Shown piece after piece: positions 2,861 through 31,112 of a DNA stretch of 64,000 nt (the stretch's first letter is position 1; every line of letters begins with the position of its first letter). The notes beneath the pieces were generated by a model. The model worked only from the letters and a program-made list of their open reading frames with translations, searched no databases and was not told the origin of the DNA. Both the position numbers and the translations under genes were made by a program. Source of the stretch: Ignavibacteriae bacterium HGW-Ignavibacteriae-2 (GTDB lineage Bacteria > Bacteroidota > Ignavibacteria > Ignavibacteriales > Melioribacteraceae); NCBI GenBank assembly GCA_002839805.1, contig PGYT01000002.1:62001-126000 (forward strand). The letters run 5' to 3'.

Positions 2861-2875
2861 ACATAAATAATGCCA
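2861..2875 (-). promoter_or_regulatory. TGGCAT-type (-24/-12-like) promoter element for the binding-protein gene
   Basis: On the minus strand this reads TGG-CATTATTTAT-GT. The TGG and the 10-base spacing to G match a sigma-54 promoter, but the -12 GC is GT. It lies 73 bp downstream of the palindrome at 2948-2964 and about 115 bp before the start codon. An extended -10 (TGnCATTAT) is the alternative reading. Confidence 0.4.
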
Positions 2876-2947: not shown

Positions 2948-2964
2948 TTTATCAAAATGATAAA
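2948..2964. promoter_or_regulatory. Palindromic operator/enhancer, mannan regulon site 1
   Basis: TTTATCA-AAA-TGATAAA is a perfect 7-3-7 palindrome. The same arms occur at 14064-14080 and 18722-18738 and with one mismatch at 26632-26648, each time upstream of mannan genes. I did not find it elsewhere in the window. The cognate regulator is unknown. Confidence 0.65.
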
Positions 2965-3228
2965 ATTTATTATTAAGATAAAAGAAGAAATCTTATTTAA
3001 AATATTCTAATTAAGTGAACAGCAACAATGGAAAACAATTTATTTATGTTAATTAAAAATCAGACGCTTGTCAATAAAATGAATTCTTTGTAAATAAAGG
3101 CATATCCACCAACATTACCACTCTGAATACGAATATTGAGAATGCCGAATGGTGATTGTTGGTAATATTTCATATGGTTTTCTTTTTAATTCTTATAAAA
3201 GCGTATTTTAATATTTCCAAATAATTTC

Positions 3229-4737: not shown

Positions 4738-7665
4738 TTATTTTTCAGTATTTATAGAAACCAACACATGAGAATCCAAGTTATATCCCTCTGCCGTTAA
4801 ATTCATTTTACCCTTAATTGCTTTATCAAATTCAATATTTATAATTTTAACTTCGCCGGGCAGAAGTGTAAAATAACCATCATCAAAATAAGCAGGTAAA
4901 ATTCGCTGATCACTTTCTGCATTTCGTAGATTTAGTTTTACCGCCAAAGCTATTGAAGCCGAAGGATTAGTAATCTCCGCTTTAATTTTTATGTACTTTT
5001 TTTCTATTTCAATTTTTGTTTTTCCGGCTAGTTCAACTTTCGGCAGTTCGTTAAACTGTTTGAAATTTTTTTCACCCTCACCATTCCAGCGCCAATATAA
5101 ATTTTCCGATAAAATGTTTTTATATGAATCGAGGAGTTTCAATTTTACCAAATGCACAGCCGGCAAATCGCCGGGCCAAATGACGGTATAACAATCTGTT
5201 CTGTTGTTGGCTTTAAGATTAATATTTGTTTCTTTATTTAATATCCGTTTAGCATTTAAGTCGTACACTTCAAAAATAGCTTTTACATCCTGATATGATT
5301 TTAAAGTCGTATTAATTGTTGTCACTACATTATTATGTAAATTCAACTGAATATGAAGAGGCTCGCAGGCTTTTTTAGCTGCGTAATAAGAAGCAAAAGT
5401 TTCGTAATCTGAAGAATAAATCTGCCACATAGTGCTCGGCCAGGCGGGGTGACTCATCCAAATCAATAAACCGCTTGCGGCATTCCACATTTTACTATTC
5501 CATGATTCAAACATAGCACGGTGACTATCGTAGTTGACCATTTGGGCTTTTGTGCAAAACTCCTCCAGACTCTTCTGCGGTCCGCCATATAATTTATCAA
5601 TATCATTCCTGTAAGCAAATTGTCCATCGTGCAAATCATGGTAATACCAAACATCGCTTATAGGCCAAACATCTTCTGGCTCCATCATTGCCCTCATAGT
5701 TTCGGCGGTAGGTACAGAAGGTGTTCCAAGTTCTGTAGAGAATCCGTCAGCGCGTTCGGAATAATATTCGGACGGATTTTTAAGATAGTGCCATGGGCCG
5801 CTGGGACGAAGATTCAGATATCTTGAATTGGGCTGATAAAGTCTGGTGCCGTCCTCAGAGGCGATTATATTAGATAAACCTTCCTCTAAATCCGCCGGTG
5901 GATAACCTTCATTACGCGCGCACCAGATAACAATTGAAGGATGATTTCGGAATCGTTTTACAACATCTTTTGCATTATCTAAAAACAGTTCGTTATCATT
6001 AACATCAAGGTTCCAGCCTTCAGTTGAGAGCCAAAAATCATTCCATACCAACAAACCATATTCATCGCAAAGATCATAAAATATTTTCTCCGTGCTTTCA
6101 CCAGTCCAGTTGCGAATCATAGTAAAGTTAGCATCGCGCTGCAAACGAATATATGGCTCAAGTCTTTCTCTTGAAACTCGTTTTAATCCATCGTCCATAC
6201 CCCAATTTCCACCCTTGCAGTAAATACGCTGCCCGTTAACTTTTACAACCAGATGCGGTGAGCAATCAATATTTTCTCCGTCAGAAACAAGTGATGTATC
6301 CTTAATATTTCTAAGGGCTGGAATAACTGTACCCGGAGCGGCTTCGCGTAAGATTGTATTATCTAGAATTGGTCTGCCGGAGTCCAAAGCTTTAATAGGA
6401 TTATAGTCAATACGCCAGTTTTTCTTTTTGCCGGCGTCAATAGTCAAATCGTACGACAATTCACGAATACCAAACCGAACAGTTTTATAATCGGAGGTTA
6501 TTCCTTTATTATCTATGACGGTGAGATTAAGATTATACAAGTTTGCTTTACCATAACCATTTGGCCACCAAAGTTTCGGATTAACAAAACATAACTGCGG
6601 ATATTTATCGGGAGCAAAACTTACTGTTTTTGTTTCATTGGGTTTAAGCTGTAAAGATTGTTCGAAAGTAACTTCATCAATTACACCTTTTACGGAAAAA
6701 ATAGCTTCTTCAGAACAGTTATTTTTTATTTCAGTATTAATAGTCAAATACGCGGTTGTAGTATCGGGTAATAATAAATCTGTAATCACTTGCGGGTCGA
6801 TTAGGGTAATATTTCCAGATGATTTTATCGATACGTTTTGCCAAATACCAATATTTCTGTCCCTTATCCCGGGTATCCAATCCCACCCTTCGGAAGAAAT
6901 AAAAGTAGGTCCATCCAGACAAAGCACACCGCCATTAGGTCCTGTACCAGCAGCGGCGGATTCTTCATGTGGAATTCCCGGATTAGGCGGGGGAATTATA
7001 TAAACAGCCAGAACATTCGTGCCACTTATATTTATTTTGTCTGTGACATCAAAGGTTCCTCGTTTAAATGCTCCCGTTATTCTGCCAAGCAGATTACCAT
7101 TCAGCCATATATCGGCTTTGTAATTAATTCCGTCAAAGTTCAACCAGATTTTATTTCCCTTGTAATCCTTCGGCATAGTAAATGAAACTCTGTACCACCA
7201 TTCCTTTCTGCATAACGAATCGGGAATTGCAAGATTGTTAATGCCAAAATAGGGATCCGGATACACGCCCAGTTCAATTAAAGTGGTCAGCACTGTTCCG
7301 GGTACAGTAGCATTATACCATTCACCGGTATTAAAATCGGGTGTTGAAATATCTTTACCATCAGAAATAATTTTGGAAGCCTCTATCAGTTCCCATCCGC
7401 CGGAAATATTATAAGAGCCATCATTGTCAGAAATAAGTTTTGTTTGTTCGACAATTTTATTCTTTTGTACAGGCATCTTTATTTGCACTAATGATTGAGG
7501 AAGTGTTTTAGGATCCTGTGGTTCGCTTAAACCATAATTCTGACAATTAACATTTATAAAAATCAGTTGAAATACTATTAACTGATACGAAATCACTTTA
7601 GATATTTGTACGATTTTTTTACCGTATTCTATTTTTTTACTTAAAAAATATTTTTTAATCATCAT
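4738..7665 (-). CDS. GH2 exo-acting beta-glycosidase, beta-mannosidase / exo-beta-glucosaminidase-like
   Basis: Family 2 glycoside hydrolase of 975 residues. It has an N-terminal jelly roll (about 85-280), Ig-like segments, a TIM barrel (about 475-800) and a C-terminal beta domain. The acid/base is Glu586 in WCARNEG and the likely nucleophile is Glu645 in STELG. Sequence such as VPGTVLTTLIELGVYPDPYFG and GWDWIPGIRDRNIGIW resembles the exo-beta-D-glucosaminidase / endo-beta-mannosidase branch rather than the classical beta-mannosidase at 18771. The first 42 residues look like a long Sec signal (the Cys41 context NVNC is a poor lipobox). GGGAG precedes the ATG. It is last in a four-gene run (13852 -> 4738), 55 bases after the GH26 gene. 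Mannan context suggests release of mannose from non-reducing ends, but specificity cannot be settled by eye. Confidence 0.82.
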   Translation of the reverse strand: MMIKKYFLSKKIEYGKKIVQISKVISYQLIVFQLIFINVNCQNYGLSEPQDPKTLPQSLVQIKMPVQKNKIVEQTKLISDNDGSYNISGGWELIEASKIISDGKDISTPDFNTGEWYNATVPGTVLTTLIELGVYPDPYFGINNLAIPDSLCRKEWWYRVSFTMPKDYKGNKIWLNFDGINYKADIWLNGNLLGRITGAFKRGTFDVTDKINISGTNVLAVYIIPPPNPGIPHEESAAAGTGPNGGVLCLDGPTFISSEGWDWIPGIRDRNIGIWQNVSIKSSGNITLIDPQVITDLLLPDTTTAYLTINTEIKNNCSEEAIFSVKGVIDEVTFEQSLQLKPNETKTVSFAPDKYPQLCFVNPKLWWPNGYGKANLYNLNLTVIDNKGITSDYKTVRFGIRELSYDLTIDAGKKKNWRIDYNPIKALDSGRPILDNTILREAAPGTVIPALRNIKDTSLVSDGENIDCSPHLVVKVNGQRIYCKGGNWGMDDGLKRVSRERLEPYIRLQRDANFTMIRNWTGESTEKIFYDLCDEYGLLVWNDFWLSTEGWNLDVNDNELFLDNAKDVVKRFRNHPSIVIWCARNEGYPPADLEEGLSNIIASEDGTRLYQPNSRYLNLRPSGPWHYLKNPSEYYSERADGFSTELGTPSVPTAETMRAMMEPEDVWPISDVWYYHDLHDGQFAYRNDIDKLYGGPQKSLEEFCTKAQMVNYDSHRAMFESWNSKMWNAASGLLIWMSHPAWPSTMWQIYSSDYETFASYYAAKKACEPLHIQLNLHNNVVTTINTTLKSYQDVKAIFEVYDLNAKRILNKETNINLKANNRTDCYTVIWPGDLPAVHLVKLKLLDSYKNILSENLYWRWNGEGEKNFKQFNELPKVELAGKTKIEIEKKYIKIKAEITNPSASIALAVKLNLRNAESDQRILPAYFDDGYFTLLPGEVKIINIEFDKAIKGKMNLTAEGYNLDSHVLVSINTEK

Positions 7666-7720
7666 TACTCCCGCTGCATATATAAAGGGAAAGATACTTC
7701 AGAGGTTATTTAGAGAATAA

Positions 7721-9946
7721 TCATTTTATTAAAATCATTTTCCCTAATCCGTTATAATTACCGCAATTCATTCTATATAGATAAATTCCGGTCGACTTAT
7801 TTGACGCGTTCCATTCAACCATATATTTGCCGGGCTTTTGTTCCTCATTCACTAGTATTGCTACTTCGCGGCCAAGCATATCGTAAATAATTAACGAAAT
7901 GAATTCCGAATTCTGCATTCTGAATTCTGGATTTTGCCTTGTGGCAGGCAAGTACGGTATGTTATATTCTATAATTGTTGTCGGGTTAAAAGGATTCGGA
8001 TAATTCTGAAACAATTTAAAATCATTCGGATAATTCAAACCAATTTCTTGTATATCAGTTAATTTATCAACAATCCTATCCTCAGGTTTTTGTCCTTCGT
8101 CGTAATATTTCCAAGTCGATCCCAGATCTATATAAATTCCCTCGTTATTGAATAACCTCGCATCGAAACTTGCGTCAACATTTTCCTGGCCGATAACGTG
8201 CATTTCTACAGTTATAACATTTTCTTCTCTAATCAAATCCATTTTATCTTGTTCGAAAATAAACACTTTTGATACAGGTGCGGCAACGGTAGCGTTTGTG
8301 TTAAAATCTATAATTTCATTAGCGGGTAAATTTATTCTACCAATTTCAGACCCGTTTATATATGCGATAAATCCGTCGTGCCCTTTTACAAGAAGACCTA
8401 AACCATTGAGGTTAGCAGGCAGAGTAATTTTTTTCCTAAAATATATTGTTTTTTCTTTTTTTGTTTCCGTTTTTAAACCGGTTGAATTAAACCCTATTGG
8501 AGTTGTACCAATTTTCCATGAAGAATCGGTATAGTCTACAGAAGTCCATGAAACCGACATTTTTGTTGTGTCAACTTTTACTTCAATAATTTCAGATGAT
8601 TCCGAGGAGTTAACATAAATATCCTGCGCCCTAAAATATAAAGTATAATTTTGTCCGTGTTCCAAATTTATATTTGTACTATGCGCAAAACCGCTTTGCC
8701 CTGATTCGAATTGATAAGGCATTTCCTCATAATTCTGATCAGTAAATGAATATTTCAAATATGCTCTTTCATCAGTTGTTAATCTTACAGTTAGTGTAGT
8801 ATCGTAAGTTGTAAGTGTTTTTTGATTTAAAAATGTAATTGTTGGGGGAGTTTTATCATCACTTCTTAAGGAATACATATCAGGTAAATCTTTCTCAAAA
8901 GATGTATTTGCGTAATCATAAAATTTAATAAAGTTAGGTGCGCTTGCCTGCCCCGGATATGGAGCATAAAAATGATTTACATGAGCATTTCGCCAAAGCA
9001 ACGCCCATGCGGTTCTGCGTGAATCCGCACTATAATTAAAAGCGGCGTACAAACAATCAGTCCACCAGGTACTATTGGGTATCTTTTCAACGCCAGTTTC
9101 GGTTATGGCAGAAACTTTTCCTCTTTTTAAAGCTTCTTTACCAAGCATATCCAGGGTACTGCCTAATGTAACGGCATTAGAAGCGGTAGTTAAATTATAA
9201 TAATCCAATCCAAGAATATCTACATAATCATCGCCGGGATATCTAAAAAAGTAACCATCATAAGAATTAACGTCCTGGGGTGAAATAGCGTATAAAAGAT
9301 TATGAATGTTATGTGTGTCTTTTAAATACTTCTGAGTCATTTTCCACAAAGCTACAAATTCTTCTTCAGTACAAGCTGATCTGCCCCACCAGTTCCAGGT
9401 TTGAGTATGTTCGTGATAAGGCCTGAAAACAATCGGTATAGGAATTCCGGCATCAGTTTTAAGTTCTTTTAAAAACTCAGCAATTCTATCGAGAATTATT
9501 AAATAGTCGGAGTGCCTGATTCCACCTGGCAGAATATATTTTACAGCCGGTGAATTATCCCACGCATCACCTCTTGTATACGGATTATCAAGATGCATAC
9601 TAATTGTATTTATTCCACCTCGTAAATACGCTTCTTTAATCCATCTTTTAATGTTGCTGAATTTTATTTTATCCACATTTACCAAATTTCCAATATCACC
9701 GATATCCCAGCCATAAACCGCCGGATAATCGCCGCATACTTCTTTAACATCGCAACGGCCTTCAACTGCGTTCCAGCCAACTCCATAGGCGGTAGCATCC
9801 TGGTGACCAAATAAAAGGTTTTCACTTCCAAATTCTATTAAATTCTGATAAAGCGATTTTGTTTCGTAAGTAGCATTTACATCTATTTGCGCTTTACTGA
9901 TAACCGGAAGAACTATCAACAAACTGATCAGTTTTTTATACTTCAT
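7721..9946 (-). CDS. GH26 beta-mannanase with Ig-like and galactose-binding-like modules and type IX sorting tail
   Basis: Start taken at the ATG at 9946, which has GGGGAG just upstream and gives MKYKKLISLLIVLPVISKAQ, a clean signal peptide; nine upstream codons are also open. The GH26 domain fills about residues 20-360, with acid/base Glu179 in RPYHEHTQTWNWWG and nucleophile Glu283 in TETG. Next come a CHB_HEX-like beta module (about 365-465, TPPTITF...YTLYFRAQD), a GH2-N/galactose-binding-like module (about 470-620, TIYFRKKITLP...INGSEIGRI) and a type IX tail (FQNYPNPFNPTT...YDMLGREV...GIYLYRM). It should be secreted across the outer membrane to attack polymeric mannan. The tail carries a short repetitive insertion at 7901-7952. 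It is third in the operon, between the esterase and GH2 genes. Confidence 0.92.
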   Translation of the reverse strand: MKYKKLISLLIVLPVISKAQIDVNATYETKSLYQNLIEFGSENLLFGHQDATAYGVGWNAVEGRCDVKEVCGDYPAVYGWDIGDIGNLVNVDKIKFSNIKRWIKEAYLRGGINTISMHLDNPYTRGDAWDNSPAVKYILPGGIRHSDYLIILDRIAEFLKELKTDAGIPIPIVFRPYHEHTQTWNWWGRSACTEEEFVALWKMTQKYLKDTHNIHNLLYAISPQDVNSYDGYFFRYPGDDYVDILGLDYYNLTTASNAVTLGSTLDMLGKEALKRGKVSAITETGVEKIPNSTWWTDCLYAAFNYSADSRRTAWALLWRNAHVNHFYAPYPGQASAPNFIKFYDYANTSFEKDLPDMYSLRSDDKTPPTITFLNQKTLTTYDTTLTVRLTTDERAYLKYSFTDQNYEEMPYQFESGQSGFAHSTNINLEHGQNYTLYFRAQDIYVNSSESSEIIEVKVDTTKMSVSWTSVDYTDSSWKIGTTPIGFNSTGLKTETKKEKTIYFRKKITLPANLNGLGLLVKGHDGFIAYINGSEIGRINLPANEIIDFNTNATVAAPVSKVFIFEQDKMDLIREENVITVEMHVIGQENVDASFDARLFNNEGIYIDLGSTWKYYDEGQKPEDRIVDKLTDIQEIGLNYPNDFKLFQNYPNPFNPTTIIEYNIPYLPATRQNPEFRMQNSEFISLIIYDMLGREVAILVNEEQKPGKYMVEWNASNKSTGIYLYRMNCGNYNGLGKMILIK
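7901..7928 (-). repeat. 7-bp microrepeat (GAATTCT-type, four units) inside the type IX tail
   Basis: Four consecutive heptamers read GAATTCC, GAATTCT, GCATTCT, GAATTCT on the plus strand. They are followed by a small hairpin (TTGCC...GGCAA, 7934-7951). The insert adds about RQNPEFRMQNSEF between the first strand of the sorting domain and SLIIYDMLG. The type IX tail at 54620 has no insert at this place and the one at 24080 has an unrelated one, so this loop tolerates insertions. Confidence 0.7.
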
Positions 9947-10009
9947 TAAACTCCCCATAATTATGAATACCATTTTCCATTTTATGGTGATTATTATTTA
10001 TCACCTGAA

Positions 10010-12034
10010 TTATTCCCAATCGTCTGTTCTAAAAGAAGAAGCAGGCAGGCCAGCGCTGTTAAATAGAGTTGCTTCGTCAGTGTCGCTCCATGCGTAACGA
10101 ACTGCGACCGGTTTAACGATTGCCTGATTATAAGCTATAAGTTTTTTCCCTTCCACCTTAACTTCCGCTTCAATAAAATTTTTATTATCTCCAGCTATTT
10201 GAAAATTCATTTTACCGTTAATTGGTTTTACCACCAAACTTTCAACCGCATAATCAAATGAAAGAATAATTTTATTACTATCTATTTTTATAGATTTGTA
10301 CAAGGGTCCGGAACAAATAACTTTTTTATTATAATCTTTTGCCAAGGCCCAAAATGCAAGCCTTTCGCCAACGTCTTTTTTATTTGCAGGATGAATATTA
10401 TCAGGGTTGCCAATATCGAGAGTAACTGCCATTCCAGTATTCGGAACCGACAATGATTTTAACTGCGCTTCCCTAAGGAGCTGCGAGTTTGTTCCCGCGC
10501 TGTATTTATATGGGGCAATTTGCGTAAAGTAGAATGGGAAATCGCCAATGCCCCAACTTGTACGCCAGCTTTTTATCATTAAAGGAAAGAGTGATTCGTA
10601 TTCTTTTGCCCTGCCGGTATTCGATTCACCCTGATACCAGATGACTCCTTTAATTAAAAAAGGTATAAGCGGATTTATCATAGCGTTATAAAGCAGTGAT
10701 GGAGTATAAGCCGAATATTCTACTGTAGATTTGGGACGATCAAAAAACGTTTCTTCAACCGCGCCAAACACAAAAAATTTTCCGCCCCTAAACTCAGCGA
10801 CAGGCAAATATTTCCAAGCGCCGACCAGAGGAATTGTTTTACCCGTGTCAAGGGTATAAATTTTCATTTTATCATTTGGACCCCATATTCCACCACCTCC
10901 CTGCGTATCCATCACTCTGACGGCAATAGTTAATTCTTGTTGGTTATTCAATTCAGAAGAGATGTTATAAACTCTATCCACCTGCCATTGTCCTTCGTAA
11001 TCATAACCGCCAACGCGTTTTCCGTTAACAAATGTAACGTCCATATCGTCGATAGGACCGAGTTCCAGGATTAAATTTTTATTGAGCATATCATCAGGAA
11101 TTGGAATTTTTTTTCTGAACCAAATAACTCCATCGTAGTTACCGACCTCAGCTGTTTCCCAGGCGCGAGGCAAGGTCATTTCTTTCCATTTACCGTCGTT
11201 ATAATCGGGGTCGGCACATAATAGATCATTAAAATCCAATCCCTTCCATTTATCTTCTCCGCTTTTATCCGTCACTGAAATTACAGGTAATTTATCGAGC
11301 CAATTTTCGAGTTTTTCAATTTCTTTGTTTACATTTTTTAATTTCCGCATAGTTTCTTTATACGGTTCAAACTCTTCGAGGGATTTTCCATTCGTCCATG
11401 CCTCAGCTGGAGTTCCTCCCCAACTCGAATGAATAAGACCTATTGGAATCTTTAATTCGTCTTGCAATTTTTTGCCAAAAAAGAAAGCTGTAGCACTGAA
11501 AGCTGATGCCGAAGCGGGAGAACAGACCTCCCATTTACCTGAACAGTTAAATTCCAATTTATTTGAAAACGCTCTCTGAACCGTAAAAAATCTAATATCG
11601 GGATAATCAGCTTTTTTAATAGCCTCCTGGGCGCCTTCAATTAGATCTTTAGGCGGCCATCCAATTAGAGGCATTTCCATATTCGATTGCCCGGAACACA
11701 GCCATACCTCACCAGTCATTACATTTTTATATGTAATCAGAGTATCATCACTCGAAACAGAAATTTGGAAAGGGCCGCCCGCTTTGGGTGTTTTAATATT
11801 TACCTGCCACTTACCTTCTTTATCCGAAACTACATCCCCTGAAAGACCCCAACTAGTATTAACAATAATCTTGGTGCCGGGTATAGCTTCCCCCCAGATG
11901 GGTGCGTTCGCATTCTGCTGTAAAACCATGTTATCGCTAAAAATTGAAGGTATTTCTATTCTTTGATTTTGAGCATTAATTTTTGGTACGGATATAACAA
12001 TTGAAACAATCAGGAGAAATAAATAAACTTTCAT
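10010..12034 (-). CDS. SGNH-family acetylesterase (sialate O-acetylesterase-like), probable mannan deacetylase
   Basis: Secreted 674-residue esterase of the sialate 9-O-acetylesterase family. It has a Sec signal to about residue 21 (KINA|Q), a beta-sandwich (25-105), then the SGNH hydrolase with nucleophile Ser117 in GEVWLCSGQSNME, the VIWYQGESN block and the distal DIGNPDNIHPANK block with the catalytic His. A galactose-binding-like domain is inserted in the middle (about 295-400, GVIWFRKKIPIP...GGGGIWG). Family members remove O-acetyl groups from sugars. Lying 22 bases after a GH5 gene and before the GH26 gene, it probably deacetylates acetylated (gluco/galacto)mannan so that the mannanases can act. 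A paralogue lies in the alginate locus (56381-58372). Confidence 0.85.
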   Translation of the reverse strand: MKVYLFLLIVSIVISVPKINAQNQRIEIPSIFSDNMVLQQNANAPIWGEAIPGTKIIVNTSWGLSGDVVSDKEGKWQVNIKTPKAGGPFQISVSSDDTLITYKNVMTGEVWLCSGQSNMEMPLIGWPPKDLIEGAQEAIKKADYPDIRFFTVQRAFSNKLEFNCSGKWEVCSPASASAFSATAFFFGKKLQDELKIPIGLIHSSWGGTPAEAWTNGKSLEEFEPYKETMRKLKNVNKEIEKLENWLDKLPVISVTDKSGEDKWKGLDFNDLLCADPDYNDGKWKEMTLPRAWETAEVGNYDGVIWFRKKIPIPDDMLNKNLILELGPIDDMDVTFVNGKRVGGYDYEGQWQVDRVYNISSELNNQQELTIAVRVMDTQGGGGIWGPNDKMKIYTLDTGKTIPLVGAWKYLPVAEFRGGKFFVFGAVEETFFDRPKSTVEYSAYTPSLLYNAMINPLIPFLIKGVIWYQGESNTGRAKEYESLFPLMIKSWRTSWGIGDFPFYFTQIAPYKYSAGTNSQLLREAQLKSLSVPNTGMAVTLDIGNPDNIHPANKKDVGERLAFWALAKDYNKKVICSGPLYKSIKIDSNKIILSFDYAVESLVVKPINGKMNFQIAGDNKNFIEAEVKVEGKKLIAYNQAIVKPVAVRYAWSDTDEATLFNSAGLPASSFRTDDWE

Positions 12035-12055: not shown

Positions 12056-13852
12056 TTAATAAGTGATTTCAACTCTGCTCAATTCGGCTTTGCCTGTAAA
12101 TACAATTTTCACAAATTCGATTTTTTTATCTGTCGGTTCATTTGAGTATCGAGCTGGTATAAAAAATCCGTAATCATTTTCTGAAAAAGGGAAAAGTGTA
12201 ACATCAGCGTTTATGGCATTAAAATTTTGCGATTTATCCGCTATTAAAATTTCTATTTTTGAATTTTCATTCGGAAGAAAAGCATCAATTTGTATTTTTT
12301 TTATTTCTCTGTTGGTTTTATATACAATTGAGTTATTATCTTCTCCAGTAAGTCTACTTCTATCCTCTTTTGCCTGTCTTACATTCTCCATGGAGAGAAA
12401 CTGTAAATTACCTTCCATTTTGTAAATGTAAGTCTCGTCAAACAACTCATCAATAATCATTTTGTCATTTACAGCAATGGGTCCAATTTCATTTGAGAGT
12501 TCAGATAGTTCACTTCCATTCCAAGCCCACATAGTGTAATAATAATTTTTTCCTCTTACAGCTGATGTGTCTGTAAATAATGGTCTGTAGGCGATATGTG
12601 TATCGTCTGTAACTTCAATAATTTCCCAGTCTCCGCCTTCTTCTTTTCTTTGAATAACATATAAAATTGCGCCGGCAGAACCCTGCCATGAAATTTTATG
12701 CACATTATCCGTAGGAAGTAATTTTGGAGCTATTGGTTTAGGCAATTGTTGAACTGATTTGTTATCAATTTTGTGCGCTTTATCTCTTATTAAAGATAGT
12801 ACCGCCTTTTCGTTATATGATTCGTTAAAATAATATCCAGGCCAGTTATAGGCTGAAAATCCAGACTTTTCATAATGTTTATAAAAACCTCCGTCTTTAT
12901 TGCGGAAACGCAAACTCCATAACAATGCTCCTGAAATACCGTTGTCTATTACAGAATCAAATATCGGTTCAAACTCATATGAAGGGATAAATCCGAATTC
13001 GCCAACAAAATATGGCTTTTTGCCTTTTGTAAGCTCTCTATTGCGCAAAATTTTAGGAATTGCGGTTTCTGAAGATTCGTAATAATGTGTGGATACAACA
13101 TCAATATTGGTATCGGCGATGGATTGTTCGTCTATAAAAGCGGTATGCGGATTAATAATAACAAGATGATTCGTATCTACAGATTGAATGTAGGCCGATA
13201 TTATTGCCTGCCAACTGTAGGGTGACTGTAATTCGTTTCCGGTTTCCCATCCCAGTATTGATTTGTCATCTTTATATAAAACGCCTGTAAAAGTATTTTT
13301 TCTGTTTACTACATATTTAATAGTATTTTCAAAATCTTCAATAAGTTGAGGATCGGTCCAAAACTCATCTTTAGTTTTACCTCTGAAAGCGGCATATTCT
13401 GCCCTGCCGCCCATCCACCACCAGTTATCGACCAATGGAATAATGAGTCTTACTCCCATTTCGTTTGCAATCTGCATCATTTTATCCAGAGCAATAAACG
13501 CTTCTTCGTTAAATTTACCCGGGGCTTCAACATGTTTTATCATTCCCGGTATATCAACATCACGTTTTACTGTAATAACGTAGGTACGGACTACTTTACC
13601 TCCAATCTGATTTATAGACGAAAGCGCATCACGGATTTCAAATTCATCCGGTAAACGCCATGGATTTGTTTCGTCGAAAGGAAAATTGTCTTCTATATAA
13701 TGTAAATTCGGAATATTAAATGAGATGAAACGAAATTCTTTATCGCCGTCCATCAACTTATCATTCTGTTTGGTAATAAAATTTTCAAACTGTCCGAAAA
13801 CAACATGGGCGCTTAAAAATAGAAGCACAAAATATAGAACTCTTTGTTTCAT
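12056..13852 (-). CDS. GH5-type endo-beta-mannanase with Fn3 domain
   Basis: Start chosen at the ATG at 13852: GGAG lies seven bases upstream, the product opens with MKQRVLYFVLLFLSAHVVFG|Q, and the promoter element at 13946-13960 leaves the longer reading (to 13933) almost without leader. The catalytic barrel fills about 25-345 with acid/base Glu207 in GWETGNE, DVVSTHYYE and nucleophile Glu285 in YFVGEFGF. An Fn3 domain follows (about 365-460), then a C-terminal galactose-binding-like beta domain. Clan GH-A geometry is clear; the exact GH5 subfamily is uncertain. It is first gene of the run that continues with the esterase, GH26 and GH2, so I infer mannan backbone cleavage. Confidence 0.82.
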   Translation of the reverse strand: MKQRVLYFVLLFLSAHVVFGQFENFITKQNDKLMDGDKEFRFISFNIPNLHYIEDNFPFDETNPWRLPDEFEIRDALSSINQIGGKVVRTYVITVKRDVDIPGMIKHVEAPGKFNEEAFIALDKMMQIANEMGVRLIIPLVDNWWWMGGRAEYAAFRGKTKDEFWTDPQLIEDFENTIKYVVNRKNTFTGVLYKDDKSILGWETGNELQSPYSWQAIISAYIQSVDTNHLVIINPHTAFIDEQSIADTNIDVVSTHYYESSETAIPKILRNRELTKGKKPYFVGEFGFIPSYEFEPIFDSVIDNGISGALLWSLRFRNKDGGFYKHYEKSGFSAYNWPGYYFNESYNEKAVLSLIRDKAHKIDNKSVQQLPKPIAPKLLPTDNVHKISWQGSAGAILYVIQRKEEGGDWEIIEVTDDTHIAYRPLFTDTSAVRGKNYYYTMWAWNGSELSELSNEIGPIAVNDKMIIDELFDETYIYKMEGNLQFLSMENVRQAKEDRSRLTGEDNNSIVYKTNREIKKIQIDAFLPNENSKIEILIADKSQNFNAINADVTLFPFSENDYGFFIPARYSNEPTDKKIEFVKIVFTGKAELSRVEITY

Positions 13853-13945
13853 TGATTCTCCGAAATGATTTTTAAATGATATCCGCGAACTAAACACAAA
13901 ATATTTTGCCCGAATAGTAATTTGATGGATCAATTAATTAATCAA

Positions 13946-13960
13946 GCAATAGAAATGCCA
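13946..13960 (-). promoter_or_regulatory. Sigma-54-like -24/-12 promoter for the GH5-esterase-GH26-GH2 run
   Basis: On the minus strand it reads TGG-CATTTCTATT-GC followed by TT. This agrees with TGGCAY-N5-TTGCW at all key positions and is the best of the six copies. It is 94 bp before the chosen ATG and 104 bp from palindrome site 2, which would act as an upstream activator site. Confidence 0.55.
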
Positions 13961-14063
13961 AAAGCAACTTCCTATAATTACAAAATTAATAGTGATAAAT
14001 CATGACTTAAGCGCATAATAGAAAGAGATTTTAGAGGTAAAGAATTATCAACGAAAAAAATCT

Positions 14064-14080
14064 TTTATCATTTTGATAAA
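14064..14080. promoter_or_regulatory. Palindromic operator/enhancer, mannan regulon site 2
   Basis: TTTATCA-TTT-TGATAAA is a perfect 7-3-7 palindrome, lying between the divergent GH5 operon and epimerase gene. It is 104 bp upstream of the minus-strand promoter element and 70 bp upstream of the plus-strand one, so one site could serve both. Confidence 0.68.
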
Positions 14081-14149
14081 ACTATATCATAATTATAATT
14101 TTTGTCCCCTTAGTAAATACTTTTTCGCTTCAAAATCGTTTTTATTTTA

Positions 14150-14164
14150 TAGCATAAATTTTGC
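14150..14164 (+). promoter_or_regulatory. Sigma-54-like promoter for the mannobiose epimerase gene
   Basis: It reads TAG-CATAAATTTT-GC followed by TT. The -12 TTGCT and spacing are exact; the -24 TGG is TAG. It lies about 36 bases before the TTG start and 70 bp downstream of palindrome site 2. Confidence 0.5.
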
Positions 14165-14200
14165 TTCATATTAAATTTACAAAAACGTAGCGGATTAAAT

Positions 14201-15595
14201 TTGGCGAATTCAAATACAGTAAATATTACTATTCTGAAAGAAATGTACAAAGCCTTAACATCCAATCTTTTGGAAAAATGGTACCCTTTGGTTATCGATA
14301 AAGAATACGGCGGATATTTTACAAATTTAACTTACGATTTTAAGCTTATGCCCGAACAGGAAAAAATGCTTGTCACACAAGCACGTCATGTTTGGAGCTG
14401 TTCAAAAGCGGCTGAGTTTTTGGGCGATAAAAATTATCTGGACTATGCAATGCATGGATTCGAATTCCTTAAAAATGTTATGTGGGATAAGGAATACGGC
14501 GGATACTTCCAGATTCGTGGCAGAAAAGGAGAAATCAGCGACGTTGAAAACTACGGAGAGGAAAAAAGAACATATGGTAACGCGTTCGCTGTCTACGGTT
14601 TAGCCGCATTGTACGAGACTTCAAAAAATGAGGATGTACTCGATCTGGCGAAAAAGTCTTTCAACTGGATTGAAGAAAACGCTTTTGATAAGGAATATAA
14701 AGGATATTTTCAATTTTTTACCCGCCAGAATATTTTATTTGATAAAAAAAGTGCTTATATAACCAAGGCATCGGATAAGGTAGAAGTCGGTTATAAAGAT
14801 CAAAATTCTTCAATTCATTTATTGGAAGCATACACAGAGTTATACAACGTACTGAAAGACGATAAACTCAGAGAACAATTATATCAGTTGCTGATACTTA
14901 TACGAGATAAAATAACAAGTGACAAGGGATACCTGAGATTATTCTTCGAAAAAGATTGGACTCCGGTTTCTTTCCGTAATTCGCCAAAAGATATTCGCGA
15001 AAAAAATTACAGATTGGATCATGTTTCTTTCGGGCATGATTACGAAACGGCATTCCTTATGCTGGAAGCTTCCTACGAGTTGGGAATTAAAAACGATACA
15101 GCTACACTTAAAACGGCAAAAAAAATGATTGACCACGCAATTGAAAACGGCTGGGATAACAACAAAGGTGGTTTTTTTGACGAAGGATATTATTTCGCCG
15201 GTGAAGATAAATGCTCTATTATTAAAGATAGTAAAAACTGGTGGGCACAAGCGGAAGGGTTAAATGCTTTGCTTCTGTTTTCAAAAATTTACCCTGAAGA
15301 TAAAAAATATTCTGAACTTTTCGTTAAACAATGGGAATACATAAAAGAATATTTAATTGATAATGATTACGGCGATTGGTACTGGGGCAGTCTTGAAAAA
15401 GAACCGCATTACAAATTTGAGCCAAAGGGAAGTATTTGGAAAGGCACTTATCATAATTGCCGTTCTCTTATAAACTGCATTACTATGCTCTCCGATGAGG
15501 AATCCTCGGGATTAACAAATGGAGCTAAAGTATATAAAAATAAATTCGATAATATGATCAATAAGTGGAAAGAAACTGCACGTAGTATAGTATAA
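14201..15595 (+). CDS. Mannobiose/cellobiose 2-epimerase (AGE superfamily)
   Basis: An (alpha/alpha)6-barrel enzyme of the N-acylglucosamine 2-epimerase family. It would convert beta-1,4-mannobiose to mannosyl-glucose at the reducing end in the cytoplasm, feeding the GH130 phosphorylase. There is no signal peptide. Family blocks visible are TQARHVWSCSKAAEF (54-68), YGNAFAVYGLAALYE, KDQNSSIHLLEAYTELY and SFGHDYETAFLMLEASY, which carry the conserved catalytic histidines. At 464 residues it is somewhat longer than the usual ~400. The start is a TTG with no clear ribosome site; an ATG at 14243 would drop 14 residues but shorten the first helix. It is alone on the plus strand, divergent from the GH5 operon, and is followed by a strong terminator. 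Confidence 0.88.
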   Translation: MANSNTVNITILKEMYKALTSNLLEKWYPLVIDKEYGGYFTNLTYDFKLMPEQEKMLVTQARHVWSCSKAAEFLGDKNYLDYAMHGFEFLKNVMWDKEYGGYFQIRGRKGEISDVENYGEEKRTYGNAFAVYGLAALYETSKNEDVLDLAKKSFNWIEENAFDKEYKGYFQFFTRQNILFDKKSAYITKASDKVEVGYKDQNSSIHLLEAYTELYNVLKDDKLREQLYQLLILIRDKITSDKGYLRLFFEKDWTPVSFRNSPKDIREKNYRLDHVSFGHDYETAFLMLEASYELGIKNDTATLKTAKKMIDHAIENGWDNNKGGFFDEGYYFAGEDKCSIIKDSKNWWAQAEGLNALLLFSKIYPEDKKYSELFVKQWEYIKEYLIDNDYGDWYWGSLEKEPHYKFEPKGSIWKGTYHNCRSLINCITMLSDEESSGLTNGAKVYKNKFDNMINKWKETARSIV

Positions 15596-15769: not shown

Positions 15770-16960
15770 TTATAGGAAGTTTTTATAAATTTCTAAATTC
15801 TTTCTTATAAGTTCCTCACGTTGTTTAACACTAAGCGCGGAACGTAAACCATCTTTGGGTGTGTTAATAACATAGTCAAGCAGTTTATCCACCGTTGAAG
15901 TAGCAACGTGCATACGTGTATCTGAAGATGCGTAATAAATAAACACATCACCATTTTCTTTTGCCACCCAGCCGTTACTGAAGACAACATTCGATACATC
16001 ACCTACGCGTTCAAAATCTTGAGGTGCAATAAAATGTCCTCCCGGCGCGGCAATTACTTTTGATGGATTTTGTAAATCTGTTAAAAACATATACAGAACA
16101 TAACGTAACCCCGCAGCAGTATTTCTTACTCCATGAGCCAGCTGCAGCCAGCCTTTATCTGTTTTTATCGGTGCGGGTCCCAATCCGTTTTTAACTTCTT
16201 TTATTGTATGATAAATTCTATCGTCAACAATATATTCCCTTTCAATAACGGCTTTTTCAATTCTTTCGCTGTATCCCCAGCCAATACCGCCGCCGGTTCC
16301 GGCTTCAATAAATCCGTCTTGCGGACGAGTGTAAAAAGCGTATTTTCCGTTTACAAATTCAGGATGAAGAACAACATTCCGCTGCTGCAGAGATTTTGTT
16401 TTAAGATCGGGCAAACGCTCCCAATTCTTAAAATCTTTAGTTCTTGTGATTCCGCACTGCGCAATTGCAGATGATGTATCGCTAGCAGGTGCAAATTGAT
16501 CTTTGCGTTCTGTGCAAAATAATCCGTAAAACCAACCGTCCTCATGTTTAACGAGGCGCATGTCGTAGACGTTTGTATCCGGAACTTCCGTTTCAGGTAG
16601 GGCTACAGGGTAGTCCCAAAATCTAAAATTATCTATTCCGTTAGTAGATTCCGCCATAGCAAAAAAAGATTTTCTATCGAGTCCTTCTGTGCGAACACAT
16701 AATAAAATTTTTCCATCGTATTCAATTGCTCCGGAGTTAAACGCGGCGTTAACGCCTATTCTTTCAAGCAGATTTGAATTTGTACTGTAATTCAAATCGA
16801 AGCGCCAGTAAACAGGCGCGTGTTCAGCTGTTAACACCGGATTTTTATAGCGTGTATATATTCCATTGTATTGACCGGAGGGTTCATTTTTTCGGGCAAG
16901 GAATTCCTCGTGCTCTTTTATCAAAGTCTTGACTTTTATATCGAATTGGTCTTTAGTCAT
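15770..16960 (-). CDS. GH130 4-O-beta-D-mannosyl-D-glucose phosphorylase
   Basis: Cytoplasmic five-bladed beta-propeller phosphorylase that cleaves mannosyl-glucose with phosphate to mannose 1-phosphate and glucose. Sequence such as [26 protein letters not shown] (in pieces, residues 32-57) and [11 protein letters not shown]...[11 protein letters not shown] is that of subfamily GH130_1, like the Bacteroides fragilis enzyme. The expected general acid is Asp133 in VYDMRLV. There is no signal peptide and the length (396) is normal. The start codon is 95 bases downstream of the symporter stop, with a long hairpin between. It works with the epimerase gene that converges on it from the other side. 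Confidence 0.95.
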
Positions 16961-16982
16961 AATTTCCCTTTTTTCAATATTG

Positions 16983-17016
16983 TAAAGAAAACATCTTTAA
17001 GAAGATGTTTTCTTTA
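16983..17016 (-). terminator. Long perfect hairpin between symporter and GH130 genes
   Basis: A perfect 15-bp stem (TAAAGAAAACATCTT and its complement) encloses a TAAG loop and lies midway in the 95-base gap. The 3' arm on the minus strand ends in TTTTCTTTA, so it may terminate part of the transcripts, or stabilise the upstream message and set the ratio of transporter to phosphorylase. Confidence 0.55.
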
Positions 17017-17055
17017 GTGAAAACAGTTTATGCGAGTTCAAAAATATTATTACTG

Positions 17056-18462
17056 CTACTTATTGCCGTTTCTAGCTTTATCCAGCTCTATTTCAATTTT
17101 ACTCATATATTTTTCATCAAGCGGATAAAAATAAATAAAACCAAGAGCCATAAGGGCCCCGATTCCCGCAATAATACTTATCATTAAACGAATTCCTAAT
17201 AATGATTGATCAGTTTGCTCCATATTCGCTTGGAATCCGAAAGCCGCAAGCAGCCAGCCGCTTAGGGCGCCGCCCAAAGTCCAGCCGAATTTTTGTGACA
17301 TTGAAGATGATGAAAAAATCAATCCTGTAGCTCTTCTGCCTGTTTTCCATTCGCTATAATCGGCAATATCCGCGTACATCGACCAAATTAACGGTAAGAC
17401 GATCCCCGCAGAAATTCCTATAAGAATATTGGAGAAAAATATTAAACCGAGCTGATTTGGCTGCAAAAAGAATATAACAAAACTTAAAATTGCTGATGTT
17501 ACTACAGAAAGAATAAATGTGTTTTTTTTGCCAATTTTAGCCGAGATAGGTTTTGCAAGAATTACACCGATAATATTAGTAGCAAGCCAAATTGACATGT
17601 ACGCAGACGCGAGAGCGGTATGACTAAACTCATAACTCTCACCCATAAAATTGATTGTCTGATCTTTTATAAAATATTTAAAATAATAAAGAATCGATCC
17701 ATCACGTAAACTGTTAAAAATTAAGACAGAAATTCCAGCACCTAACATTATAAACCACGGACTGTTTTTGGTGATATCTTTCAAATCCTCTTTTAGAGCG
17801 GAATGACCTTCGAGAGCCGGTTTAAGTCTTTCTTTAGTTCCTGCGAAAGTTAACATAAAGAACAATGCCGCTAATATTGCGTAAACTCCAATTGTAAACT
17901 GATAACCGGTGGCAGGAGTGCTGTTTTCCCCAAAATATTCTATAAGAGAGTTAGCAGTGGCGGTTACGAACAGACCGCCTGAAAAAGCGCCTATAAATCT
18001 CCATGAAGCCAGTGAAGTTCTTTCCTCGGTGTTATTTGTCATTACTCCCATCAACGAGGAATATGGTACATTTACAGCAGTGTAAACCATCATCATTAAA
18101 GTATAAGTGACATAAGCGTATATTAGTTTCCCTGTAGCATCAAAATCCGGTGTAGTAAAAGTGAGAACGCCTATAATTGCGAAAGGAACTGCTACAAAAA
18201 GTAAATAAGGCCGAAATTTACCCCATCTTGTTGAGGTTCTATCGGCAATTATGCCCATCATAGGATCGTTTATTGCGTCCCAAACTCTAGTAACAAGAAA
18301 CATCGTTCCAACAGCGGCCGCAGAAATTCCGAATATATCCGTGTAAAAAAATAAAAGAAACATTGAAAAGAGCTTCCAGAACATTGAAGAGGCAAAATCT
18401 CCGCATCCGTAAGCTGCTTTTTCGCGCAGAGAAATTTTTGTTAGCAGATTACCAGAATTCAT
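17056..18462 (-). CDS. GPH-family sugar:cation symporter, probable mannobiose/manno-oligosaccharide importer
   Basis: Inner-membrane transporter of the glycoside-pentoside-hexuronide family with about twelve hydrophobic helices in 468 residues. The N-terminal region SLREKAAYGCGDFASSMFWKLFSMFLLFFYTDIFG is reproduced only in part here, followed by RVWDAINDPMMGIIADRT, where the MelB-type cation-site aspartates fall, and WGKFRPYLL. It lies directly before the GH130 gene under palindrome site 3 and the promoter element at 18646-18660, so import of mannobiose and phosphorolysis are co-expressed. The substrate is inferred from context only. Confidence 0.87.
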   Translation of the reverse strand: MNSGNLLTKISLREKAAYGCGDFASSMFWKLFSMFLLFFYTDIFGISAAAVGTMFLVTRVWDAINDPMMGIIADRTSTRWGKFRPYLLFVAVPFAIIGVLTFTTPDFDATGKLIYAYVTYTLMMMVYTAVNVPYSSLMGVMTNNTEERTSLASWRFIGAFSGGLFVTATANSLIEYFGENSTPATGYQFTIGVYAILAALFFMLTFAGTKERLKPALEGHSALKEDLKDITKNSPWFIMLGAGISVLIFNSLRDGSILYYFKYFIKDQTINFMGESYEFSHTALASAYMSIWLATNIIGVILAKPISAKIGKKNTFILSVVTSAILSFVIFFLQPNQLGLIFFSNILIGISAGIVLPLIWSMYADIADYSEWKTGRRATGLIFSSSSMSQKFGWTLGGALSGWLLAAFGFQANMEQTDQSLLGIRLMISIIAGIGALMALGFIYFYPLDEKYMSKIEIELDKARNGNK

Positions 18463-18645: not shown

Positions 18646-18660
18646 TCATAAATAATGCCA
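18646..18660 (-). promoter_or_regulatory. TGGCAT-type (-24/-12-like) promoter element for symporter-GH130
   Basis: On the minus strand it reads TGG-CATTATTTAT-GA. TGGCAT and spacing fit; the -12 GC is GA. The core TGGCATTATTTATG is identical to the element at 2861-2875. It lies 62 bp downstream of palindrome site 3. Confidence 0.42.
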
Positions 18661-18721: not shown

Positions 18722-18738
18722 TTTATCATTATGATAAA
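18722..18738. promoter_or_regulatory. Palindromic operator/enhancer, mannan regulon site 3
   Basis: TTTATCA-TTA-TGATAAA is a perfect 7-3-7 palindrome upstream of the symporter-GH130 pair, 62 bp before the TGGCAT element. Confidence 0.65.
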
Positions 18739-18770
18739 TATTTATGAATTTGATAATTCGATTATTTGTT

Positions 18771-21574: not shown

Positions 21575-22711
21575 TCACCTCAGGTAGTATAATGGGGGCA
21601 ATTCATCCTCAAATAAAATATTCAGCTGCTCCTTAAAACGAATAAAATCATCAGCACTTTTATCACCTTTATAGGGAACATAATAATGCCCCGGATGAGC
21701 GTTACGCCAAACCATAACATAAGATATTTTTATACTGTCATCAATAATTGTTTTAAGCAGTTTTTGTGTCCACCAAGTAGAGTCGGGAATACGCTCAAGT
21801 CCTGTTTCCGTTAAAGCGGCTATTTTATTTTTATCGGAAGCCAATTTACTAACAATTCTTAATTTCTGATTTACTGCGCTCAATCCATCACCGGAATCCG
21901 TAAAATCCCAATAGTTATCCATACCTAACAAATCAACATATTTATCACCCGGGTATCTTTCCAAGTATTCGGCTGCGTCATTAAAATTTCGGTCCGGCGA
22001 ATAGGCGTAAATAAAATTTCTGACCCCCAAAGAGTCCCTTAAATATGAGACTGTAAAGCGCCAGAGGTTAATAAATTCATCAGCCGTGCAGAAATGTTTT
22101 CCCCACCAAAACCAATTACCGTCAAATTCGTGGTAAGGGCGGAATATTAACGGAATGTTCTCATTATCTACTCCTTTTAGTGAAATCGCGTAATCTGCAA
22201 TTTTTTTTAAATCCTGTTTGTACTTTTCGTTAAAATCAGCTCCAGGCAGAATATACTTTACAACTGTACTTGTATCATAAAATGAACGACCGGTTACAGG
22301 ATTATTATAGTGCCAGGCATAAGCGTTTACGCCGCCGCGCATGTACGATTCGGTGGTAAGCCTCTTATACCGATTTATTTCTGATGTATCTTTTATATTT
22401 GTTACATCTCCAAAATCCCAGCCGTGCAATCCTGGAAAGGAGTTTGTTACATCTTTAACGTCCGACCTGTTCTTATCGCCCCGCCAATGAACACCGTAAG
22501 CCGTACTATGCTGGTGCCCGAATATAACGCTGTCTTTCTGCAGATTTTTCAGATTATAATACAGGAGCGCGGTTTCTTTTGAGGCAAGAGAATCGGCCAG
22601 ACTAATTCCCAAATTCTTTTGAAATTCAGGACTGTTAAAAGTTGCACACGATGTGAATAATACTGCTGTTATTCCGGCTGCAATTATTTTATTTGTTATC
22701 CGCAACTTCAA
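21575..22711 (-). CDS. GH26 beta-mannanase, lipoprotein (third paralogue)
   Basis: Starts at a TTG with AAGGAG four bases upstream, inside the last 23 bases of the preceding GH5 gene, so the two are translationally coupled. The lipobox is FTSC (Cys22). GH26 blocks are FGHQHSTAYGVHW (64-76), acid/base Glu195 in RPYHEFDGNWFWWG, DLLGMDNYW and nucleophile Glu302 in TETG. Compared with the other two GH26 enzymes, HEFDG replaces HEHTQ/HEHNQ and DNYW replaces DYYQ/DYYN, which resembles exo- or mannobiose-releasing GH26 enzymes of Bacteroides. It may therefore process oligosaccharides for the GPH symporter; that is inference. Confidence 0.92.
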   Translation of the reverse strand: MKLRITNKIIAAGITAVLFTSCATFNSPEFQKNLGISLADSLASKETALLYYNLKNLQKDSVIFGHQHSTAYGVHWRGDKNRSDVKDVTNSFPGLHGWDFGDVTNIKDTSEINRYKRLTTESYMRGGVNAYAWHYNNPVTGRSFYDTSTVVKYILPGADFNEKYKQDLKKIADYAISLKGVDNENIPLIFRPYHEFDGNWFWWGKHFCTADEFINLWRFTVSYLRDSLGVRNFIYAYSPDRNFNDAAEYLERYPGDKYVDLLGMDNYWDFTDSGDGLSAVNQKLRIVSKLASDKNKIAALTETGLERIPDSTWWTQKLLKTIIDDSIKISYVMVWRNAHPGHYYVPYKGDKSADDFIRFKEQLNILFEDELPPLYYLR

Positions 22712-24047
22712 TAATCTCCTTTCTAAGCCCTTTCATTTGATCAGCGTGTTTATGGATTATACTTATAGTTGAGGTATCTGTGTCGAAAACAGAATTTAAT
22801 CCTTGTGGTTCCTGTCCCGGGTCACCTGTTAAAGGATCGCCATCCTTCCAAATAGCATCTTCGCGTTGTGGGCGTCCCTCTCCTCCCCAAGCCCAGAAAT
22901 TAGTTCCGGCAATTGGAGCGCCCGCAGCAGCACTGTCGTAAACTAAATCAAAAATTTTGGAGTAATATTTATCTCTTGCAGTTGTAGGAGTCCCTTCAGT
23001 AAACAGTTCAAAATCGCGAGCTAAACCAAATTCTTCCATAGTTGTTGGTTTGCCCAAAAGCCTGGCAAGATCAATATGTTTCTTTATATATTCGAGAGCA
23101 TTTTTTTCAGAAATCTCATAAGTTTCATCAATTTTTTTTGCGTCGAACCAGCCCCAGTTTTTCGCCCACAGATGAAAAGTTACATAATCTATATATTTGC
23201 TTGCGTGGGCTGTTAAATAAAACTCTTCACTGCCCATACTGCCCATTGTGCCTTCATTACCTGTTGTTACAAGATGATTAGGATCAATTGAATGTATAAA
23301 TTTTGCAGTGGAATCCACCCACTTGTAAAAATAATCAATGTCTTTCGGATCTTCATTTAATTGACCTGGGCGAGGTTCATTAGCCAATTGCCATGCCATT
23401 ATTGCGCTGTCTTCAAAATAATAATTTCCGGTAAACTTATTTTTGCGATTTACCAGATCTTTAATGTAATTTTTATATGCGGAATTAGCTTTTTCATTTA
23501 TATAAAAAGAAGCTGAAAAATTCATAAAATCCGCCCATGTATGGTTGGAGTTTGCCGGATCAGGAATTTCTCGACCGCCGAACCATTGATTGTATTGGGC
23601 CATTCCGCCCGACCATTCCCAATAATTATTGAGGAATATTACGGCTTTCATATCTCTCTTAGCCATTTCTGCCAATAAAAAATCAAGACCTTCTAGCAGG
23701 TGTTCATCGTAGACTCCCGCCTCTTTTTGTATTGCCGGGCTGAGTGAATTTTTAAGTACAGTCTCTTCAGAAGCGCCGAGAATACGCAGATTGTCCACAC
23801 CGATAGATTTTAGAAAATCCAATTCTTTTATTAATCTTTCTCTGTTCCCAGTAACACCGGGCGATCCAAGATAACATCCATACCAAAAATTTGTGCCTAC
23901 AAAATAATATGGCTTACCTTCCAGCTGAAACTGAGTTCCCTTTACTGTAACATATTCCGGCGTTTTTTCAGATGTCAATAAACCTGTACAGGATTGTAGC
24001 GCAGAAGTTAAAACAATCAATAATATGAATGAAGAAATATTTCTCAT
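22689..24047 (-). CDS. GH5 (subfamily 7-like) endo-beta-1,4-mannanase, lipoprotein
   Basis: Family 5 mannanase of 452 residues. It has a lipoprotein signal (LQSC, Cys20), FYFVGTNFW-type opening (YYFVGTNFWYGCYL, 47-60), acid/base Glu224 in WQLANEPRPG, a THE-like HLW segment (about 292) and nucleophile Glu339 in TMEEFGLARD. The RPG after NE and the EEFGLARD block are typical of GH5_7 mannanases. It is 32 bases after the gene at 24080-26476 and overlaps the GH26 gene by 23 bases. The extended C-terminus includes WAWGGEGRP, also found in the subfamily. It should act at the cell surface or in the periplasm on mannan chains. Confidence 0.92.
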   Translation of the reverse strand: MRNISSFILLIVLTSALQSCTGLLTSEKTPEYVTVKGTQFQLEGKPYYFVGTNFWYGCYLGSPGVTGNRERLIKELDFLKSIGVDNLRILGASEETVLKNSLSPAIQKEAGVYDEHLLEGLDFLLAEMAKRDMKAVIFLNNYWEWSGGMAQYNQWFGGREIPDPANSNHTWADFMNFSASFYINEKANSAYKNYIKDLVNRKNKFTGNYYFEDSAIMAWQLANEPRPGQLNEDPKDIDYFYKWVDSTAKFIHSIDPNHLVTTGNEGTMGSMGSEEFYLTAHASKYIDYVTFHLWAKNWGWFDAKKIDETYEISEKNALEYIKKHIDLARLLGKPTTMEEFGLARDFELFTEGTPTTARDKYYSKIFDLVYDSAAAGAPIAGTNFWAWGGEGRPQREDAIWKDGDPLTGDPGQEPQGLNSVFDTDTSTISIIHKHADQMKGLRKEIIEVADNK

Positions 24048-26535: not shown

Positions 26536-26550
26536 GCATAAATTATGCCA
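26536..26550 (-). promoter_or_regulatory. Sigma-54-like promoter for the GH5-GH5-GH26-GH2 run
   Basis: On the minus strand it reads TGG-CATAATTTAT-GC followed by A. TGG, spacing and GC are all present. The expected start of transcription near 26525 leaves a leader of about 50 bases to the ATG at 26476, and 82 bp separate it from palindrome site 4. Confidence 0.52.
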
Positions 26551-26631: not shown

Positions 26632-26657
26632 TTTATTAGTATGATAAAAATTTATCA
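26632..26657. promoter_or_regulatory. Imperfect palindromic operator/enhancer, mannan regulon site 4
   Basis: TTTATTA-GTA-TGATAAA (26632-26648) matches the shared 7-3-7 palindrome with one changed base. A second half site TTTATCA follows at 26651-26657, giving a doubled, overlapping arrangement (TGATAAA-AA-TTTATCA). Confidence 0.55.
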
Positions 26658-26942
26658 TAATAATAATTCAGTAAATCGCAGGAGATTAAAGACTTATAAT
26701 AATTCGAGGAAGAAAAAAATGTAAGCATAATTATCATCGTCAAACTTTCAGGATGCTCTCATTAAGAGTATAGACACTTTTCAGCGAACTAAAATTTTAT
26801 ATAAAATGGAAATGAAGTTTCAAGTAACATATAATTGATTATTAACATTACCGTTTTATAAAAAAGATTGAATAAATAGTCACAATTTCATTTAACTTTT
26901 TATCACCGAAAGTGGAAAAAAAATTATCTATTTAAGCTTATA

Positions 26943-29526: not shown

Positions 29527-29537
29527 TCTATTTGTTT

Positions 29538-31085: not shown

Positions 31086-31112
31086 CTTATTACCTGCATT
31101 GTTACAAAAAGG

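Follow-up and report, generated by a model that had tools for sequence, protein, structure and literature searches.

A predicted divergent sigma-54-type control region and its mannan gene set in an Ignavibacteria genome

In the genome of Ignavibacteriae bacterium HGW-Ignavibacteriae-2 (4.16 Mb), a gene for a GH5 beta-mannanase-like protein and a gene for a 2-epimerase are divergent, with the GH5 start at 13852 (minus strand) and the epimerase start at 14201 (plus strand) separated by an intergenic gap of approximately 350 bp. We analyzed a stretch of 64,000 nucleotides, C35:62001-126000, referred to here as the window, and obtained genome-wide counts from pattern searches. A preliminary description of the region had placed a palindrome between a minus-strand and a plus-strand promoter-like box, 104 and 70 bp away, and had proposed that one bound activator could fire both. 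The features of the locus are as follows.

14063..14081, no strand: primary operator palindrome TTTTATCAtttTGATAAAA, proposed NtrC-type activator site, kept in an 11-genome alignment
14083..14099, no strand: secondary, weaker palindrome TATATCATAATTATAAT, 19 bp from the primary, forming a tandem operator
13944..13960, minus: predicted -24/-12 (sigma-54-type) promoter of the GH5 operon TGGCATTTCTATTGCTT, gap to palindrome 103
14150..14166, plus: predicted -24/-12-type promoter of the epimerase gene TAGCATAAATTTTGCTT, gap to palindrome 69
12056..13852, minus: GH5 beta-mannanase-like protein with signal peptide (PDB 9m20, E 4e-23)
4738..12034, minus: rest of the GH5 operon, gaps of 21-55 bp
10010-12034, minus: SASA esterase, GH5 operon
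7721-9973, minus: GH26, GH5 operon
4738-7665, minus: GH2, GH5 operon
14201..15595, plus: cellobiose/mannobiose 2-epimerase (5zig, a cellobiose 2-epimerase, E 3e-41)

The 14063-14081 palindrome, TTTTATCATTTTGATAAAA, is perfect, with arms of 8 bp and a spacer of 3 bp. Both boxes lie outward of it with the -24/-12 geometry of sigma-54 promoters, and the intervening bases number 103 and 69, which bears out the layout first described. The criterion for a sigma-54 promoter was the presence of GG and GC dinucleotides at -24 and -12 with 10 bp between them (TGGCAY-N5-TTGC). The GH5-side box (TGGCATTTCTATTGC, 13960-13946) has both dinucleotides and no mismatch to TGGCAYN5TTGC. The epimerase-side box (TAGCATAAATTTTGC, 14150-14164) has 1 mismatch, with TAG in place of the GG at -25/-24, and is for that reason called sigma-54-type here rather than a certain member of the class.

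The start of GH5 had been set at 13852 rather than 13933, and several observations support that choice. The protein read from 13852 begins MKQRVLYFVLLFLSAHVVFG, a typical signal peptide with a hydrophobic stretch, GGAG lies upstream of its ATG, and the alignment of several relatives' GH5 proteins with it starts at residue 1. Counting from the -12 C at 13946 places the predicted start of transcription at approximately 13934, and a protein beginning at 13933 is disfavored because its transcript would have no space for a leader. The epimerase has no signal peptide, and its TTG start is consistent with the N-termini of relatives.

Sigma-54 boxes alone were rejected as evidence, since the window as a whole showed no excess of TGGCAYN5TTGC boxes when as many as 2 mismatches were allowed (76 compared to 81 expected). 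The palindrome family was enriched in the window: allowing up to 3 mismatches gave 40 matches compared to 16.4 expected, and none of 100 shuffles reached 40. Exact copies of the palindrome number 3 in the genome, all on the same contig as the window, and the five contig palindromes with at most 1 mismatch fall inside approximately 40 kb. A strict TGGCAYN6TG box was present 45-110 bp outward of all five (observed gaps, 61-103 bp) compared to 0 of 10 palindromes checked elsewhere; the background probability of a box per site was 0.0014 (Markov) to 0.006 (contig). Genome-wide, a relaxed operator-plus-box pattern gave 6 matches, 5 of them the contig sites, and the reversed-pattern control gave 0. 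Neither the palindrome-box coupling nor the presence of both boxes is due to chance.

The other operators in the window precede further candidate operons of the same gene set:

18722..18757, no strand: tandem palindromes 18722-18738 and 18741-18757
18646..18660, minus: -24/-12 box TGGCATTATTTATGA of the symporter-phosphorylase operon, gap 61
15770..18462, minus: GPH symporter (17056-18462) and GH130 (15770-16960)
26632..26667, no strand: tandem palindromes 26632-26648 and 26651-26667
26536..26550, minus: -24/-12 box TGGCATAATTTATGC of an operon running from 26539 to approximately 21575, gap 81
2948..2982, no strand: tandem palindromes 2948-2964 and 2966-2982
2861..2875, minus: -24/-12 box TGGCATTATTTATGT of a leftward operon, gap 72

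At each of the sites at 2948, 14064, 18722, and 26632, a second palindrome stands 18 or 19 bp off. The operon leftward of 2861-2875 encodes a secreted mannanase-like protein, a TonB receptor, and a PorV-like protein, and extends beyond the window. The GH130 protein is assigned by sequence as a 4-O-beta-mannosylglucose phosphorylase (3was, E 1.3e-177), and with the cellobiose/mannobiose 2-epimerase both enzymes of an epimerase-phosphorylase pathway are encoded, as far as identity by sequence goes. The predicted targets are GH5, GH26, GH2, the esterase, the mannobiose 2-epimerase, the mannosylglucose phosphorylase, the GPH symporter, and the TonB receptor.

Two further observations were made in these parts of the window. 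A possible plus-strand sigma-54 box (TGGCATAAATATTGG, 3229-3243) precedes a GH26 gene at 3373 and is 264 bp from the nearest strong palindrome. The gene at 22689-24047 encodes a protein of 452 amino acids with no Pfam match above cut-off, whose relatives repeatedly adjoin the operator or the sensor genes described below.

The fifth contig operator, L045:19130 (C35:49130), has its box TGGCATAATGCTTGT at a gap of 83 and no clear second palindrome. It stands upstream of an operon for a solute-binding protein, a histidine kinase, and an activator, which is approximately 30 kb upstream of the control region and outside the window:

L045:17687-18994: solute-binding protein
L045:16191-17672: histidine kinase
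L045:14723-16186: NtrC-type response regulator with sigma-54 interaction domain

The activator has the features of an NtrC-type protein, namely Response_reg and Sigma54_activat domains, GAFTGA, and a C-terminal helix-turn-helix, the last read from the sequence with no match in a Pfam HTH_8 search. Its best PDB match was 4l4u (E 1.2e-78), and its recognition helix is near-invariant among orthologues. The kinase has two membrane stretches and, across 102 homologues, a conserved RIYHTHHKAEK segment together with N, D-x-G-x-G, and G-x-G boxes. The solute-binding protein resembles trehalose/maltose-binding proteins (1eu8, E 7e-42) and has a membrane stretch at its N-terminus. No ABC permease was present among the neighboring proteins scanned, which makes a role in sensing rather than transport likely for the solute-binding protein. 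The genome has a single rpoN (the only PF04552 match, E 3.9e-59) and approximately 22 strong sigma-54 activator matches. Also in this neighborhood, L046:3845-7480 encodes a protein of 1211 amino acids without a Pfam match that is 58-69% conserved near the trio in relatives, and its gene adjoins PorV-like and TonB-receptor genes.

At the level of sequence, the operators, boxes, spacing, conservation, gene identities, rpoN, and an intact sigma-54 activator within an operator-bearing operon are established. From these features we infer which protein binds the operator: the activator at 14063-14081 is very probably the NtrC-type response regulator of the linked trio, autoregulated from the same operator. 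The distance of approximately 30 kb between the activator gene and the control region counts against this main reading.

Comparison of relatives, which include Melioribacteraceae and other Ignavibacteria, showed orthologous trios beside the same mannan enzymes in many Ignavibacteria. Relatives repeat the palindrome, a weaker second palindrome 18-20 bp off, and the two boxes in the region that separates the epimerase gene from a GH5 or esterase gene, and a second site at +/-18-20 bp is present at most related operator sites. In an alignment of epimerase upstream regions from 11 genomes, the majority of invariant positions belong to the palindrome, the second half-site (parts of 14083-14099 are invariant), or the epimerase -24/-12 box. 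The gene opposite the epimerase is GH5 in most genomes and the SASA esterase in genus g9, and most of these neighbors are preceded by a separate GGC-type box, located 49-103 bp from the shared palindrome. The idea of one activator site with two outward promoters is strongly supported by this comparison, and the divergent arrangement, as predicted from these genomes, is conserved across Ignavibacteria. A different pairing was seen in L184 (G109:C135): there the palindrome separates the epimerase gene from a paralogous sensor operon that points the other way.

The strict operator-box pattern gave 18 matches in 14 of 116 related genomes, with no match in any of the 116 for the reversed control. 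It was commoner in genomes with an orthologue of the sensor (8 of 15 compared to 6 of 101; Fisher p 2e-5, indicative only, as the genomes are related). Seven orthologue-bearing genomes had no strict match; looser sites were present in several of these. Operator-box gaps (n = 42, non-duplicate) cluster near 51, 58-62, 68-72, 77-84, and 90-93 bp, with a best period of 10.75 bp (Rayleigh p 5.5e-7; jitter null 0 of 5000; the sequences are related). This periodicity is suggestive of an activator that acts by looping from one face of the DNA.

Taken together, we consider it highly probable that this is a divergent sigma-54-dependent control region at which the trio regulator, on tandem palindromes, would activate the whole mannan gene set. 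A mannan-derived oligosaccharide, the presumed ligand, would bind the membrane-anchored solute-binding protein outside the cytoplasmic membrane, and the loaded protein would activate its partner kinase. The kinase would in turn phosphorylate the response regulator, which would bind and assemble on the tandem palindromes 14063-14081 and 14083-14099 and, through DNA looping and ATP hydrolysis, trigger opening of sigma-54 RNA polymerase at the left and right -24/-12 promoters. Leftward output would be GH5-SASA-GH26-GH2, and rightward output the mannobiose 2-epimerase. The same operator would also turn on the symporter/GH130, GH26/CBM, and TonB-receptor operons, and its copy ahead of the sensor operon would give positive feedback. 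The reading of a shared activator is well supported; that both promoters fire together from one bound complex, rather than alternating, we infer.

Several departures from the sigma-54 consensus count against this scheme. The -24 element of the epimerase promoter is TAGCAY-like rather than TGGCAY in 10 of the 11 aligned genomes (window 14150-14164 and relatives L176-L185), the exception being G051 with GTG (GTGCAC). Other promoters of the regulon mostly retain TGGCAY; the GH5-side box starts with CGG or AGG in several relatives, and the -12 C is often replaced by A or T in the lineage. It is unlikely, given what follows, that only the leftward promoter depends on sigma-54 and the operator, with the epimerase promoter (TAGCAT..TTTGC) being weak or read by a housekeeping sigma factor and the palindrome serving GH5 only. 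TAG for GG is a conserved departure from the sigma-54 consensus, as that explanation would have it, but the epimerase promoters keep the exact sigma-54 spacing of -24 and -12, lie 58-82 bp from the palindrome, and are in phase with the TGGCA promoters. Moreover, the most invariant alignment columns cover the -24 and -12 parts, and these parts are absent upstream of the epimerase where a close sensor orthologue is absent; G009 and G013, with an epimerase and only a distant sensor homologue (approximately 42%), had no boxes and no clear palindrome there. The Bacteroidota -33/-7 promoter has the consensus TAnnTTTG. Reading the epimerase box as such a promoter was rejected by eye, as TA stands three bases, not two, before TTTG. 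The conserved TAG variant bears on how much change is tolerated at the sigma-54 -24 element.

Paralogous trios with the same gene order, at 54-64% identity, hardly differ in the recognition helix. TTATCA-N3-TGATAA precedes 14 of 40 boxes in paralogue loci and 21 of 50 in orthologue loci, with 0.3 expected and 0-1 found for other spacers in each set. The genes downstream of paralogue operators are mostly sodium:solute symporters, as predicted from a sequence motif and confirmed for one in this genome (PF00474), and an operator and sigma-54-type box directly precede predicted SSS-type symporter genes in L113, L128, L138, L140, L143, L157, L169, L170, and L172. The outer bases of paralogue operators tend to be different, e.g., (C/A/G)TTATCA...ATAA(T/G). 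The operator core thus looks common to the trio family, and specificity possibly lies in the outer bases. The sixth operator with a -24/-12 box in this genome, L212 (G000:C28:38838-38939), is also located before a sodium:solute symporter gene. We kept this site out of the mannan regulon since it precedes a symporter and has the non-mannan outer bases GTTATCA...ATAAT, resembling paralogue operators.

With recognition helices so alike, there may be cross-talk, or the true binder may be a paralogue. In a stronger version, a paralogous system rather than the trio of this contig would be the main occupant of the operator, and the shared core upstream of boxes in paralogue loci speaks for this as well. 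We regard this version as quite unlikely, however, as many relatives have the orthologous trio in physical linkage with mannan genes and the trio itself carries the operator, whereas paralogue operators tend to differ in outer bases and mostly stand ahead of SSS symporters. Least of all do we favor a repressor operator (e.g., for the LacI-type protein at 32706-33743, encoded on the same contig) or a general regulator site, a very improbable reading in general and rejected for LacI on position and linkage, as the sites 49-103 bp upstream of promoters are too distant for simple blocking and the palindrome tracks the NtrC trio, while the LacI gene is grouped with uronate genes. Those genes (phosphofructokinase, UxaE, and UxaC), with the LacI-type regulator, occupy 28000-33743, to the right of the mannan region.

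If the shared control by the trio regulator is true, sigma-54 and NtrC-type activators would also control secreted polysaccharide degradation, and would do so without a hybrid kinase. Surveys link sigma-54 and these activators mainly to nitrogen, flagella, PTS sugars, and the cell exterior. Our literature search, which took in few subscription papers and is no proof of absence, did not find the divergent operator arrangement or sigma-54 control of polysaccharide degradation in Ignavibacteria, nor a description of polysaccharide regulation in Melioribacteraceae or Ignavibacteria. Sequence alone served here to predict a complete mannan regulon, from its regulator and signal route to its operators, promoters, and operons. 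We lean, by a little, toward a wider proposal: that Ignavibacteria manage much polysaccharide and sugar uptake through trios of this kind acting on a shared core, TTATCA-N3-TGATAA, and sigma-54 promoters, separately from classical Bacteroidota HTCS/SusR/ECF control, with specificity in the outer bases and TAG setting epimerase output.

Bacteroides fragilis degrades mannan by a route of mannobiose 2-epimerase and mannosylglucose phosphorylase. The epimerase, GH130 mannosylglucose phosphorylase, cation-sugar symporter, and GH26 mannanase of that route are all present here; the pathway is already known, and regulation alone differs. In the LuxP-LuxQ-LuxO system, a periplasmic binding protein and a kinase likewise feed an NtrC-type regulator, but through a hybrid kinase and phosphorelay that control small RNAs and not catabolism. 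In the hybrid two-component systems (HTCS) of Bacteroides polysaccharide utilisation loci, a single protein combines the kinase with a regulator whose DNA-binding domain is of AraC type (PMC11253607). As in HTCS, a polysaccharide breakdown product would be sensed and a polysaccharide-degradation locus activated (PMC11253607). The mannan trio does not belong to the HTCS, having separate genes for the kinase and an NtrC-type regulator; it comprises three separate proteins with an NtrC-type activator and sigma-54-type promoters. The phosphoglycerate system of Salmonella, PgtC-PgtB-PgtA, runs from a separate sensor to a membrane kinase, a regulator with a sigma-54 interaction domain, and a transporter promoter (PMC11077982). 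The mannan trio shares with it the separate sensor protein, membrane kinase, and response regulator with a sigma-54 interaction domain, but differs in ligand and targets, with a polysaccharide-degradation regulon and divergent tandem operators, and its activator scored 106.5 bits in the NCBIfam PgtA equivalog test compared to a cut-off of 650. Judged on these features, the mannan trio is a system predicted to work like PgtABC but is not a member of it.
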